From positions 310,001-374,000 of the forward strand of contig NZ_JABBWV010000001.1 of assembly GCF_012999535.1 (NCBI RefSeq): 64,000 nt of DNA, written 5' to 3'. A program made the position numbers and the translations under genes. The stretch comes from Microbispora sp. H11081. Its GTDB lineage: Bacteria > Actinomycetota > Actinomycetes > Streptosporangiales > Streptosporangiaceae. Shown piece after piece: positions 9,013-37,190 of the stretch; the stretch's first letter is position 1; every line of letters starts with the position of its first letter. The notes under the pieces were generated by a model. That model worked only from the letters and a program-made list of their open reading frames with translations, had not been told where the DNA came from and searched no databases.

Positions 9013-10233
9013 GTGCCTTCTGTGCTTCCCGACGGCGATCCCGTCCCCGCGAGCGGCGAACTGCCGCCAGGGGCCCTCGACGGGCTCGGCTCCCGTCCTT
9101 TCGGCTTCTACGTGCACGTGCCGTTCTGCGCGACGCGCTGCGGCTACTGCGACTTCAACACCTACACCGCCGCCGAGCTCGGCCCCGGCGCCGCGCAGCG
9201 GGACTACGCCGCCACCGCGGTCGAGGAGATACGGCTTGCCCGGCGCGTGCTCGGGGACGCCGCGCCGCCCGTGGAGACCGTGTTCTTCGGGGGCGGCACG
9301 CCGACGCTGCTGCCCGCCGCCGATCTCGTACGGATCCTCGACGCCATCGGCGAGGAGTTCGGCCTGCGGCCCGGCGCCGAGGTGACGACCGAGGCCAACC
9401 CCGAGTCCGTGGACCCGGCCTACCTCAAGGAGTTGCGGGCGGGCGGGTTCACCCGGGTGAGCTTCGGCATGCAGAGCGCGGGCGAGCACGTCCTCGCCGT
9501 CCTCGACCGCCGGCACACCCCCGGCCGCCCCGCCGAGGCCGTACGGGAGGCCCGCGAGGCGGGGTTCGAGCACGTCAACCTCGACCTGATCTACGGCACG
9601 CCGGGGGAGAGCGACGCCGACTGGCGGGCCTCGCTTGAGGCCGCGCTGGCCGCCGGGCCCGACCACGTCTCGGCGTACTCCCTGATCGTCGAGGACGGCA
9701 CCCGGCTCGCCGCCCGGATCCGGCGCGGCGAGCTGCCGATGCCGGACGACGACACGGCGGCCGACCGCTACCTGATCGCCGAGGAGACGCTGACGGCCGC
9801 CGGGCTGAGCTGGTACGAGGTCTCCAACTGGGCCGCGGGCGACGAGGCCCGCTGCCGCCACAACCTGCTCTACTGGACCGGCGGCGACTGGTGGGGGGCC
9901 GGGCCCGGCGCGCACAGCCACGTCGGCGGCACCCGCTGGTGGAACGTCAAGCACCCCGTGGCGTACGCCGCGCGCCTGGCGGAGGGGGCCTCGCCCGCGC
10001 ACGCCCGCGAGGTGCTGGGGGCGGAGGACCGGGCCGTCGAACGGGTCATGCTGGAGCTGCGCCTCGTCTCGGGCCTCCCGCTCGCGGACATCGCCCCCGA
10101 GGCCCGTACGGCGTGCGCGCGGGCGCTGGCGGACGGGCTCTTCGAGGTGGAGGCGTTCAAGGCCGGCCGGGCCGTGCTCACGCTGCGCGGCAGGCTGCTC
10201 GCCGACGCCGTCGTGCGGGACCTGGTTCCTTAG
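9013..10233 (+). CDS. hemW: Radical SAM protein HemW
   Basis: A 406-residue radical SAM protein formerly annotated as oxygen-independent coproporphyrinogen III oxidase. The CxxxCxxC iron-sulfur motif is C39, C43, C46 in HVPFCATRCGYCDF, followed by FFGGGTPTLL and the HemW-type region SFGMQSAGEHVLAVLDRRH. HemW proteins are thought to carry or insert haem rather than to oxidise coproporphyrinogen. Its position just before the hrcA-dnaJ cluster is the conserved actinobacterial arrangement. It converges on the DUF3097 gene, with a repeat array filling the gap. Start GTG 9013. Confidence 0.93.
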   Translation: MPSVLPDGDPVPASGELPPGALDGLGSRPFGFYVHVPFCATRCGYCDFNTYTAAELGPGAAQRDYAATAVEEIRLARRVLGDAAPPVETVFFGGGTPTLLPAADLVRILDAIGEEFGLRPGAEVTTEANPESVDPAYLKELRAGGFTRVSFGMQSAGEHVLAVLDRRHTPGRPAEAVREAREAGFEHVNLDLIYGTPGESDADWRASLEAALAAGPDHVSAYSLIVEDGTRLAARIRRGELPMPDDDTAADRYLIAEETLTAAGLSWYEVSNWAAGDEARCRHNLLYWTGGDWWGAGPGAHSHVGGTRWWNVKHPVAYAARLAEGASPAHAREVLGAEDRAVERVMLELRLVSGLPLADIAPEARTACARALADGLFEVEAFKAGRAVLTLRGRLLADAVVRDLVP

Positions 10234-10296
10234 CGGCCCCCGAGAGCGGCCCGGGAACGTGGCCGTGGCCCGGAGCCAGGCCGGTCGTCCGCGTCC

Positions 10297-10475
10297 CGTC
10301 ATCGGTGCAAGATCACCGCGCGCGCCGCCGCTGGTCAGGAGTGGTCCGTACGGAACTCTGCGAGATCACGGAGGGCGGGCCCGCAGGCCGGCGGGGGTGT
10401 GCGCGACAAACTGCAAGATCACCACATGTGAAAGCGCAGGCAGGCGGGGATGGGTGCGGCAAACTGCAAGATCAC
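10297..10475 (-). repeat. Four-unit 53-bp-period intergenic repeat array (set 1)
   Basis: Reading the minus strand, four units begin at 10475, 10422, 10369 and 10316, exactly 53 bp apart. Their first 20 bases are GTGATCTTGCAGTTTGCCGC, GTGATCTTGCAGTTTGTCGC, GTGATCTCGCAGAGTTCCGT and GTGATCTTGCACCGATGACG, so similarity fades with distance from the DUF3097 gene. A CCTGC/CCAGC block recurs at bases 36-40 of the first three units. The first unit contains the TGA stop of the DUF3097 gene. The array fills the gap between two convergent genes. A second array of the same period lies at 37.03-37.19 kb. Confidence 0.85.
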
Positions 10476-11281
10476 GGGGAGGGGGTGGTGACGAAGTCGA
10501 TGAGTTCTTCGACGCGGCCGAGGAGTTCGGGCTCCAGGTCGGCGTAGGTCGTGACCCGGCCCAGGATGTGCCGCCACGCCTCCTGGGGGTCCATCCGCCA
10601 GCCGAGGGCGGCGATCACGCCCTCCTTCCACGGCACGCCGCGCGGCACGTCGGGCCACGCGGGGATGCCAAGCGCCCGCGGCTTGACCGCCTGCCAGATG
10701 TCCACGAACGGATGCCCGACGACGAGCACGTCGTCCCCGGACACCCGGGCGGCGATGCGGCTCTCCTTCGAACCGGGCACCAGGTGGTCCACGAGCACCC
10801 CCAGCCGCCTGCCCGGTTCAGGGGCGAACTCCTCGACGATGGCGGGCAGGTCGTCGACGCCTTCCAGGTATTCGACGACGACCCCCTCCACCCGCAGGTC
10901 GTGCCCCCAGATCTTCTCGACCAGGGCGGCGTCGTGGACGCCCTCGACGTAGACGCGGCTCTCCTTGGCGACCCGCGCGCGCAGGCCCTCGACCGCGATC
11001 GATCCCGAGGCGCTCCGCAGCGGCCCCTTCTGGCCGGCCTTGGGGCGCACCAGCGTGACCGGCTTGCCGTCGAGGAGGAAACCGGCGGGGGTCAGCGGGA
11101 ACACCCGCCGCCGGCCGAACCGGTCCTCCAGTGTCACCGCCTCCTTGTCGCAGGCCACCACGGCGCCGCAGAAGCGGCCCTCGGCGTCCTCGACCACGAG
11201 GTCGGGCTCGGCCGGGATCTCGGGGATCGTCCCCCGCCGTGGCCGCCGCCAGTCTCCGGAAAGCACGTCCCGCCCGTACAT
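10472..11281 (-). CDS. DUF3097 family protein
   Basis: A 269-residue soluble protein of the actinobacterial DUF3097 family, which begins with the typical MYGRDVLSGDWRRP and lies beside hemW and hrcA in many actinomycetes. Features include a stretch resembling an archease/Toprim-like nucleotide domain around RVYVEGVHDAALVEKIWGHDLR (about residues 102-123) and DDVLVVGHPFVDIW. The molecular function is not established. Its stop codon lies inside the first unit of a 53-bp repeat array. ATG 11281 is preceded by TAGCGT at leaderless spacing. Confidence 0.85.
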   Translation of the reverse strand: MYGRDVLSGDWRRPRRGTIPEIPAEPDLVVEDAEGRFCGAVVACDKEAVTLEDRFGRRRVFPLTPAGFLLDGKPVTLVRPKAGQKGPLRSASGSIAVEGLRARVAKESRVYVEGVHDAALVEKIWGHDLRVEGVVVEYLEGVDDLPAIVEEFAPEPGRRLGVLVDHLVPGSKESRIAARVSGDDVLVVGHPFVDIWQAVKPRALGIPAWPDVPRGVPWKEGVIAALGWRMDPQEAWRHILGRVTTYADLEPELLGRVEELIDFVTTPSP

Positions 11282-25280: not shown

Positions 25281-26998
25281 CAGAAGAGGAAGTAGCGCTG
25301 CGCCATCGGCAGCGACTCGGCCGGGGCGGGCTCGATCAGCTCGCCGTCCACGTGCACGGCGAAGGTGTCGGGATCCACCCTGATGTCCGGCAGCGCGTCG
25401 TTGAGCGGCATCGCGTCCTTGCGCCTGGCGCGGACGTCGGCCACCGGGGCCAGCCGCCTGCGGACGGCCAGGCGGTCGGCAAGGCCGTCCTCCAGCGCGA
25501 GCGGCGCCACGAAGTGCAGCGAGGTCGCGGCGGCGGTGACCGGGGCCGCGCCGAACATGGGACGGGGCAGCACGGGCTGCGGCGTCGGGATCGACGCGTT
25601 CGCGTCGCCCATCTGGGCGTAGGCGATGACGCCGCCCTTGACGACGAGGTCGGGCTTGACCCCGAAGAAGGCCGGGCTCCACAGCACGAGGTCGGCGAGC
25701 TTGCCGGGCTCCACCGAGCCGATCTCCGCGTCCAGGCCGTGGGCGATCGCCGGGTTGATCGTGTACTTGGCCACGTACCTGCGGGCGCGGAGGTTGTCCG
25801 CGGGACCGTCGCCCGGCAGCGCGCCGCGGCGGCGCTTCATCACGTGCGCCGTCTGCCACGTGCGGATCACGGTCTCGCCGACCCGGCCCATGGCCTGGGA
25901 GTCCGAGCCGATCATCGAGATCGCGCCCATGTCGTGCAGGACGTCCTCGGCCGCCATCGTCGTCGGCCTGATCCGCGACTCGGCGAAGGCCAGGTCCTCG
26001 GGGATGGAGGGGTTGAGGTGGTGGCACACCATGAGCATGTCCAGGTGCTCGTGGTGGGTGTTGACGGTGTGCGGCCTGGTCGGGTTCGTGGACGAGGGCA
26101 GCACGTTGGCGTGGGAGGCCACCGTGATGATGTCGGGGGCGTGACCGCCTCCCGCGCCCTCGGTGTGGTAGGCGTGGATGGCCCTGCCGCCGATGGCCCG
26201 CAGGGTCGACTCCACGAAGCCGGCCTCGTTCAGCGTGTCGGTGTGGATGGCGACCTGCACCCCGGTGGCGTCGCAGACCCGCAGGCAGGCGTCGATCGCG
26301 GCGGGGGTGGTGCCCCAGTCCTCGTGCAGCTTGAAGCCGGAGGCCCCGGCCCTGAGCTGTTCGAGCAACCCTTCCTCGCTGACCGTGTTGCCCTTGCCGA
26401 GCAGGGCCACGTTCACCGGGTAGGAGTCCAGGGACTCCAGCATCCGGCCGAGGTACCAGGTCCCGGTCACGGTGGTGGCCTTCGTGCCCTCGGCGGGGCC
26501 GGTGCCGCCGCCGATGACGGTGGTCACGCCGGAGGCGAGCGCCTCGTCGAGGATCTGCGGGCAGATCAGGTGCACGTGGGAGTCGACCGCGCCCGCGGTG
26601 ACGATCTTGCCGTTGGCTGCGAGGATCTCGGTGGACGGGCCGATGACGAGGTCGGGGTGGACGCCGTCCATGGTGTCGGGGTTGCCGGCCTTGCCGATGG
26701 CGGCGATCCGGCCGTCGCGGACGCCGATGTCGGCCTTGACCACGCCCCAGTGGTCGAGGATCACCGCGCCGGTGATGACCAGGTCGGCCGCGCCCTCGGC
26801 CCGCGTGGTGCGCGCCTGTCCCATCGACTCGCGGATGACCTTGCCGCCGCCGAACACCGCCTCGTCGCCCGCTCCCGCGGGTCCCATCGACAGGTCCTCG
26901 GTCACCTCGACGTACAGGTCGGTGTCGGCCAGGCGCACCCGGTCGCCTGTGGTGGGGCCGTACAGCGCGGCGTAGCGGGCGCGCTCGACGCTAGACAT
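25280..26998 (-). CDS. ureC: Urease subunit alpha UreC
   Basis: The 572-residue catalytic subunit of urease, which hydrolyses urea to ammonia and carbamate. Nickel-site and catalytic motifs are all present: [11 protein letters not shown] (two His), the carbamylated lysine in [36 protein letters not shown], and the mobile flap [23 protein letters not shown] 26998 gives the usual [19 protein letters not shown] start and overlaps the ureB stop by 8 bp; the frame is open upstream through ureB. Length is standard. Confidence 0.98.
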
Positions 26999-37031: not shown

Positions 37032-37190
37032 GTGATCTTGTAGTTTGTCGCAGTGATGTGGCATGACCTGCGCCTTCACTGTTCGTGATCTTGCAGAAAA
37101 TCGCAAGACTACGCCCTGACCTGCCCAAAAGGCATCCGTGATCATGCGATAGGCGGCACCCGGGAGATCCCCGTCTGCCGCCTTTCGCAT
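37032..37190 (+). repeat. Three-unit 53-bp-period intergenic repeat array (set 2)
   Basis: Units begin at 37032, 37085 and 37138, exactly 53 bp apart, on the plus strand. The first 20 bases are GTGATCTTGTAGTTTGTCGC, GTGATCTTGCAGAAAATCGC and GTGATCATGCGATAGGCGGC. CCTGC recurs at bases 36-40 of the first two units and CTGC one to two bases later in the third. The first unit differs by one base from unit 2 of the array at 10.4 kb. It lies 23 bp after leuA, in leuA orientation, and conservation falls with distance. The third unit also contains an 8-bp stem, AGGCGGCA with TGCCGCCT. Confidence 0.85.

Follow-up and report, generated by a model that had tools for sequence, protein, structure and literature searches.

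What is the 53-bp repeat that takes in the stop codon of a DUF3097 gene in Microbispora sp. H11081, and what might it do at the end of that gene? In the window analyzed here, a stretch of 64,000 nucleotides, the first-pass annotation had described four minus-strand units exactly 53 bp apart, and this description was borne out. The units of array 1 start at positions 10475, 10422, 10369, and 10316 and form a lone minus arm at about 10305-10475. The DUF3097 gene (PF11296 and PF22845; 10472-11281, minus strand) is convergent with a HemN-like radical SAM gene (PF04055; 9013-10233, plus strand), beside which no plus arm was called. Unit 1 opens with the end box GTGATCTTGCAGTTTGCCGCA (10455-10475, minus strand), for which the family consensus over 184 arms is GTGATCTTGTAGTTTGTCGCA. 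As had been claimed, this first unit contains the DUF3097 stop codon, which is the TGA (10472-10474, minus strand) inside the first GTGATC of the end box, and the C-rich tract 5' of the box (10476-10490, minus strand) consists of the last DUF3097 codons. The boxes of units 2, 3, and 4, all on the minus strand, are GTGATCTTGCAGTTTGTCGCG (10402-10422), GTGATCTCGCA (10359-10369), and GTGATCTTGCA (10306-10316). Similarity to unit 2 over 41 nucleotides was 88% for unit 1 and 63% for unit 3, in agreement with the claimed decay away from the gene. The CCTGC block said to recur at bases 36-40 stood in part: units 1 and 2 agree in the offset of CCTG, which lies one base further in unit 4 and is altered (GACCAGC) in unit 3. 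In unit 1, the GACCTGC-type block reads TGCCTGC (10436-10442, minus strand; offset 33-39), and the family consensus over 184 arms has GACCTG at offset 33-38. The loose dyad proposed within each unit was not upheld, since other units do not conserve the inner half of it; the real dyad is made by the opposing arms of a complete array. A scan of window positions 9800-11000 for terminator-like sites with a T run returned none.

Searching the window for GTGATCTTGCAG with up to two mismatches gave 16 matches against 2.9 expected, of which six, including every match with at most one mismatch, fell in array 1 and in a second array at 37032-37148. Array 2 is likewise a lone arm and comprises three plus-strand units. 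Its end box is GTGATCTTGTAGTTTGTCGCA itself (37032-37052, plus strand), followed by the boxes GTGATCTTGCA (37085-37095, plus strand) and GTGATCATGCG (37138-37148, plus strand). The latter runs into a hairpin-like sequence that, by reading, is also present in congeners. Elsewhere in the window, at 26544-26838 on the plus strand and opposite to a called gene, an Rfam match to 5_ureB_sRNA exceeded the gathering score.

The repeat proved to belong to a genome-wide family. In the 7.38-Mb genome of the strain (G000; other G numbers denote compared genomes), the 15-mer GTGATCTTGCAGTTT with up to two mismatches was found 214 times (107 + 107), as opposed to twice (1 + 1) for the reversed control. Triples of GTGATC at 51-55 bp numbered 109 in G000, 32 in G008, 29 in G003, 18 in G006, and four in G004; none occurred in ten other congeners, and the reversed controls gave none in all 15 genomes. 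The first-pass annotation had left this whole-genome scan to decide whether a family exists, and the scan was strongly positive. Further copies, the 53-bp period, and a preference for gene 3' ends, any of which it had allowed might be missing, were all found.

The anatomy of the family was derived from 135 arrays at fetched loci (71 in G000, 22 in G003, 21 in G008, and 21 in G006). A full array is a dyad, usually with three boxes of the type GTGATC(T/A)TGCA in each arm; in the standard form, three boxes on the plus strand are followed by a centre and three boxes on the minus strand, and 59 of the 135 arrays matched this form exactly. Some others, including both window arrays, consist of a single arm with three to five units. 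At its outer end an arm has a 21-mer box, GTGATCTTGTAGTTTGTCGCA, which was nearly invariant over 184 arms except at offset 9 (T 0.70, C 0.25). GTAG stands at offset 8-11 of the end box in about 70% of arms, and inner boxes mostly have GCA. The 24 nucleotides outside the array contain 60% C and 14% or less G at both ends, as compared with 38% C and 33% G after stop codons of the array-free genome G010. Such arrays are not CRISPRs, as had been stated from the start: only boxes of 11-21 bp are conserved, the arms are inverted, and 71 short arrays occur at the fetched G000 loci.

Neighboring boxes on the same strand were 52-54 bp apart in 475 of 491 spacings, which extends the claimed 53-bp period to the whole genome. 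Eight of the remaining 16 were one turn off (41-44 or 62-65 bp), four lay at 49-51 or 55-57 bp, none at 45-48 or 58-61 bp, and four elsewhere (31 bp and about two units); part of these deviating spacings was common to orthologs. The centre spacing was 22-23 bp in 50 of 102 arrays and 32-36 bp in 22. When the main mode was left out, the centre spacings had a moderate periodicity of about 10 bp (R 0.43, n = 20, for G000; R 0.52, n = 52, for all arrays), values that are uncorrected for shared ancestry. As 53 bp is about five helical turns, the boxes would lie in one helical register. The helical phasing of the motifs that had been suggested is thus supported by the spacing and centre-spacing data, albeit more moderately than the period itself. 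Spacer sequence is a different matter. Mean spacer identity between different G000 arrays was 0.32, and because spacers diverge while the spacing is uniform, it is the 53-bp distance that is kept and not the sequence. The best spacer matches between G000 units had a median of 0.65 versus 0.61 after column shuffling, a few recent copies aside, indicating that common descent contributes something to the uniformity. Adjacent outer units were more alike in their spacers (0.78 at L033, 0.74 at L354, and 0.61 in the window at 10475-10370, versus the mean of 0.32), and units may have been added by duplication of the outermost one, as at these three places.

The anchoring at gene 3' ends that had been read from array 1 applies to the family as a whole. 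Genes were called with a home-made codon-based caller that was trained on the window and applied to other genera too. Among 127 arrays with called neighbors (eight of the 135 had none), 60 lay between convergent, 66 between tandem, and one between divergent genes, whereas 399 control gene pairs were 18.5% convergent and 18.5% divergent. For 163 of 186 array sides that face a stop codon, this codon was located within -60 to +40 bp of the array end, and in 62 of the 186 the TGA of the end box was the stop codon itself. Within G000, 85 stop-facing arms were distributed as follows: the stop codon was at the TGA in 30, at the TAG in four, at 0-40 bp in 39, elsewhere inside the array in five, and farther away or otherwise placed in seven.

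These positions bear on the idea that the arrays are sites of chromosome architecture, bound by a nucleoid-associated or topology protein in a gyrase-, IHF-, or SMC-like role, with gene ends merely being permitted places. Phasing, the dyad, and the 71 arrays at fetched G000 loci would all suit such a function, and BIMEs bind gyrase and IHF (PMC2817692). A stop codon supplied by the end box in 62 of 186 cases is nevertheless a tighter link to gene ends than this explanation needs, and a range of 0 to 109 triple boxes among congeners is odd for a core function, so that we regard it as rather unlikely. Gene-end location as such is shared with other intergenic repeats; REPs are intergenic, downstream of coding regions, and mostly between convergent or co-directional genes (PMC3733652).

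Of 33 lone arms, 29 had the same sense as the gene at whose stop codon they lie; the four that did not were an arm of L360 and three orthologous minus arms, those of L031, L122, and L160. At L031 (2398-5159), and also at L122 and L160, a plus arm and a minus arm are about 2.76-2.78 kb apart; genes for a glycerate kinase and an amidohydrolase lie between those of L031, as they do between arms in G003 and G006, where the locus was matched. A gene of the AbiEi / REase_MTES_1575 type stands between a plus and a minus arm at L134 (1598-2569; G003), L110 (G000), and L137 (G008), and a relative abuts an array at L223 (442-1444) of G131. It is a lead to a candidate array-associated nuclease; the family to which it belongs may simply be common.

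The sense orientation of lone arms also raises the question of whether the boxes act as DNA or in the 3' end of the mRNA, by way of a hairpin, protein binding, or stability. Inverted arms are able to pair, and in G131 and G037 the box forms near-perfect hairpins with matching changes, as judged by reading. Opposite arms were compared in 32 symmetric G000 arrays. Spacer identity was 0.373 within the same array versus 0.403 between different arrays for unit 1 and 0.284 versus 0.318 for unit 2, and covariation between the arms was confined to a few base pairs beside the central boxes. Fold z-scores of six lone-arm segments ranged from -1.97 to +0.53; array 2, at -1.97, folded somewhat better than shuffled sequences, eight of 200 shuffles being as good. 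The lack of arm complementarity beyond the boxes, these few central base pairs aside, and the lone-arm z-scores argue for DNA and against a single long RNA hairpin, which was rejected in view of the outer arms without covariation. The 53-bp spacing, kept although the spacer sequence is free, the absence of clear folds in lone arms, and the outcome of an Rfam search in six sources, in which two matches exceeded the gathering score and neither lay on an array, likewise speak against an RNA element, and we give this explanation a low probability. A selenocysteine tRNA was seen in G131 at L362 (17989-18080).

An exact scan of GTDB genomes for the 21-mer yielded 37 stretches, all from Microbispora, and the 20-mer of the end box with up to two mismatches was present in five of 60 genomes searched, including G000, all within the genus. 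A 53-bp box pair was found in five of 394 genomes of the class, namely G000, G003, and three distant genomes. Two of the distant ones, G131 and G069, contain 328 and 413 exact copies, respectively, of the core 11-mer GTGATCATGCA, with reversed controls of zero. In segments of these genomes (80 kb of G131 and 120 kb of G069), most of the boxes adjoined gene ends; they were C-rich on the 5' side and had extensions specific to the lineage. There were exceptions, such as the box at L369 (3306), which lies between divergent genes. The box spacings in G069 and G131 varied from locus to locus, and strict 53-bp phasing is thus a Microbispora trait. In G037, from the same order, the box was read as near-perfect single hairpins. 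Some arrays of G069 (L367-L370) enclose a second palindrome, AGAATGCTGG ... CCCAGCATTCT with GTGGCGCGACACGCCGG, in the manner of a nested repeat.

Hundreds of exact 11-mer copies and inverted pairs are also what DNA uptake sequences would present, that is, an over-represented oligomer for species-specific transformation that is often found as inverted pairs near gene ends. Uptake sequences are common within genes, and phased arrays of six boxes are not their usual layout. The core 11-mers, by comparison, fell in called genes in none of 28 cases in G131 (80 kb, 94% coding) and in two of 62 in G069 (120 kb, 86% coding), which leaves this explanation with hardly any probability. Two further candidates were rejected. 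Arrays of a variant motif in the array-free congeners were discarded, as ten genomes lacked any triples of GTGATC at 51-55 bp and a relaxed G-rich variant had counts in array-free G007 and G013 that resembled those in G004. An inverted pair of core boxes 0-30 bp apart gave no matches in viral contigs, so that a viral origin was dismissed.

Individual sites have been occupied differently in different species. At the hemN/DUF3097 locus, the array is present in G000 only. In G003, the place is taken by roughly 170 bp of dissimilar sequence, the G014 contig breaks off close to the gene, and the remaining 12 congeners have their two stop codons nearly touching or separated by a few tens of bp. At the site of array 2, ten congeners, including array-bearing G003, G004, G006, and G008, retain homologous sequence with weaker boxes, one box is intact in the outgroup-like G005, and only G000 has about 25 extra bp with the end box and several box-restoring differences. 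Since array-bearing G003, G006, and G008 do without an array there, no single site is needed in all. At locus B, an array was found in G000, G003, G004, G006, and G008; by reading, the array-free genomes G007, G010, G012, G013, and G014 have a similar ordinary hairpin, and G002 and G005 a short hairpin with the same box. Hairpin-like sequence, again by reading, persists beside the arrays at L033 and in window array 2, showing that the array is no simple replacement for a terminator at these two places. In trees of the flanks, array-bearing and array-free species were intermixed, which implies repeated gains, losses, or exchange. At locus A, in the place occupied by an array in array-bearing species, array-free congeners contain other repeat-like intergenic sequences (for example at L248, L250, L253, and L254) that were read as GTGCCGGAGGCGCGCC-type and CGAGCGAGCCGGAGGGGCGCG-type.

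Two pairs of copies illustrate how arrays have spread. One array of G000 is present at two loci, L035 and L356, with 91% identity over 245 bp and unrelated flanks, the homology ending at most 8 bp from the terminal boxes. L336 and L358 are 83% identical over 271 bp, and here the homology stops at most 10 bp from the end boxes. Bounded in this way, the pairs demonstrate that arrays disperse as units, and they have the common boundaries at terminal inverted repeats that are typical of dispersed MITE copies. No target-site duplication was seen by eye in L035/L356. Arms enclose genes at two kinds of locus, and the cargo comprises no known transposase. An autonomous transposon with the same ends was considered for the 2.76-kb pair at L031 and was rejected, the cargo being the amidohydrolase and glycerate kinase genes.

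The strongest rival is a selfish element of the REPIN or MITE kind, in which the boxes would be transposase recognition sites, the arrays would be non-autonomous and spread by an unseen, perhaps domesticated transposase, and constraint would arise from transposase-dependent maintenance and not from a function at individual genes. The unrelated flanks of both copy pairs, the all-or-none occurrence per genome, and the lineage-specific array at hemN/DUF3097 agree with it. The GTAG of about 70% of end boxes is a known tag of REPs (PMC3733652), and REPINs are inverted REPs with conserved ends and a diverse spacer that are duplicated and moved by a RAYT and kept for millions of years (PMC3116915 and PMC8049555). 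Set against this are the constraint on orthologous copies at fixed loci, which is unexpected unless each copy helps the host, the target-site duplication missing by eye, and outer arms that are devoid of the compensatory pairing described for REPINs. In addition, a scan of 2.18 Mb of fetched DNA for HUH/RAYT-type motifs returned 23 matches, of which one was doubtful and located far from any array (L377) and the other 22 were looser. We consider an element kept by its transposase a serious but less favored possibility.

The constraint was quantified with hand-picked pairs of flank-matched orthologous arrays, first 47 pairs and then a single pair at each of 24 loci; omitted pairs include E027/E042, E034/E096, E084/E098, E079/E101, and E068/E104. 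In the second set, in which spacer counts left out any other boxes, 71 of 1060 inner-box positions (6.7%) had changed as opposed to 370 of 1341 spacer positions (27.6%), and the proportion was lower in the boxes at 24 of 24 loci. The outer CCTG block had changed at 23 of 258 positions, lower than the spacer at 23 of 24 loci. Over the 47 pairs, the changes amounted to 13 of 775 positions in inner GATC, 140 of 2100 in inner boxes, 36 of 479 in outer CCTG blocks, and 455 of 2007 in spacers. Because the arrays were fetched via their end boxes, end-box conservation is partly ascertained; inner boxes are weakly ascertained, two good boxes being required per array, and the CCTG block is not. Neutral drift of fixed copies, which is expected of MITEs, was thus not observed. 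Locus B offers a contrast between species. Relative to G003, boxes and spacers had changed at 1 of 86 and 39 of 184 positions in G008, at 4 of 86 and 19 of 183 in G006, and at 14 of 86 and 34 of 167 in G004, where the spacing is lost too (gaps of 6 and 12 bp). At this one compared locus, box constraint is lost in G004, whose triples are down to four and whose boxes have changed nearly as fast as the spacers. In species that have retained the family, purifying selection acts strongly on the boxes of arrays at fixed loci. That the arrays constitute a selected, functional family is, in our opinion, almost certain. The first-pass annotation had considered a decaying transposable repeat: dispersal as units speaks for the transposable part, and purifying selection on the boxes at fixed loci against the decay. 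The arrays are best read as mobile-derived elements that would since have come under selection by the host.

What the host might gain is indicated by position and geometry. Probably, the arrays are bound as DNA and in phase. A putative sequence-specific protein would occupy the boxes on one face of the DNA and cooperate across the dyad. The resulting nucleoprotein block might halt RNA polymerases that come out of the gene on either side, immediately past the stop codon, the C-rich, G-poor end of the transcript perhaps admitting Rho, and the array would in this manner separate convergent or closely spaced genes as a two-way terminator or insulator. The reading that we put forward as the best one, with a confidence somewhat short of even, is a bidirectional roadblock terminator or insulator in the form of a nucleoprotein block that is phased, has dyad symmetry, and sits at stop codons; termination or insulation as the main role is regarded as equally tentative. 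Several observations weigh against it: some arrays retain a neighboring hairpin, other intergenic repeats also lie at gene ends, and most array-free congeners manage at hemN/DUF3097 with stop codons that nearly touch. The phased nucleoid-protein or termination site that had been suggested for array 1 fits these data as a candidate reading, the binding protein being putative. More speculatively, the arrays could represent a new gene-end system in which a trans-acting DNA-binding protein forms dyad, helically phased multi-box complexes over stop codons and so ends or insulates transcription. In such a system, copies of the arrays would be made at new gene ends, gain and loss would be genome-wide and shared with the protein, and related box systems, each with extensions of its own, would occur across Actinomycetes.

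High-G+C actinobacteria often do without U-tract terminators, and how their convergent genes are separated is a practical question. The family offers dozens of natural replicates per genome, close species with and without arrays, one species in which it has collapsed, and a clear code of boxes, 53-bp spacing, and end box; its function is thus directly testable. The binding protein, if found, would provide a portable, sequence-specific, two-way stop for transcription and would add a further case of dispersing repeats that have been turned into selected parts of gene ends.

In the searches made of open-licence publications, titles and the beginnings of abstracts contained no account recognizable as this family, and the same applies to the titles of papers matched by motif letters, one on ArgR of Streptomyces coelicolor (PMC5839063) among them. 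Comparison with known systems places the arrays as follows. Bidirectional intrinsic terminators are alike in position and symmetry, and the single-hairpin boxes of G131 and G037 look similar to them on reading; unlike such terminators, the arrays have sequence-specific boxes and free spacers, exist also as lone arms, and are accompanied by no T-run site around array 1 (9800-11000). MIRUs are actinobacterial intergenic tandem units, some of them 53 bp long, that lie near stop codons as near-identical direct repeats. The present family conserves only its boxes and has inverted arms, a distinction that is drawn from the general description of MIRUs. In eukaryotes, oriented terminator arrays such as the Sal boxes of TTF-I consist of repeated protein-binding sites immediately downstream of the transcription unit and function as roadblocks; the mechanism proposed for the arrays is alike, and common ancestry is not implied. 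With REPs, BIMEs, and REPINs, the arrays share high-copy extragenic inverted pairs downstream of genes, spread as units, and conserved ends around a diverse spacer. They differ from them in having arms of at least three boxes that keep a common helical register, an end box unlike the inner boxes, and an end box that often supplies the stop codon. Compensatory stem changes, characteristic of REPs and REPINs, were not found in the 32 symmetric G000 arrays. The REP tag (GTAG/CGTC) does not stand directly outside the palindrome consensus of the arrays; GTAG is instead inside the end box, where a fraction of 0.70 of the 184 arms has T at offset 9, and is absent from the inner boxes. As stem covariation fails and three boxes per arm share one register, we file the array family as a new variant among extragenic palindromic elements.
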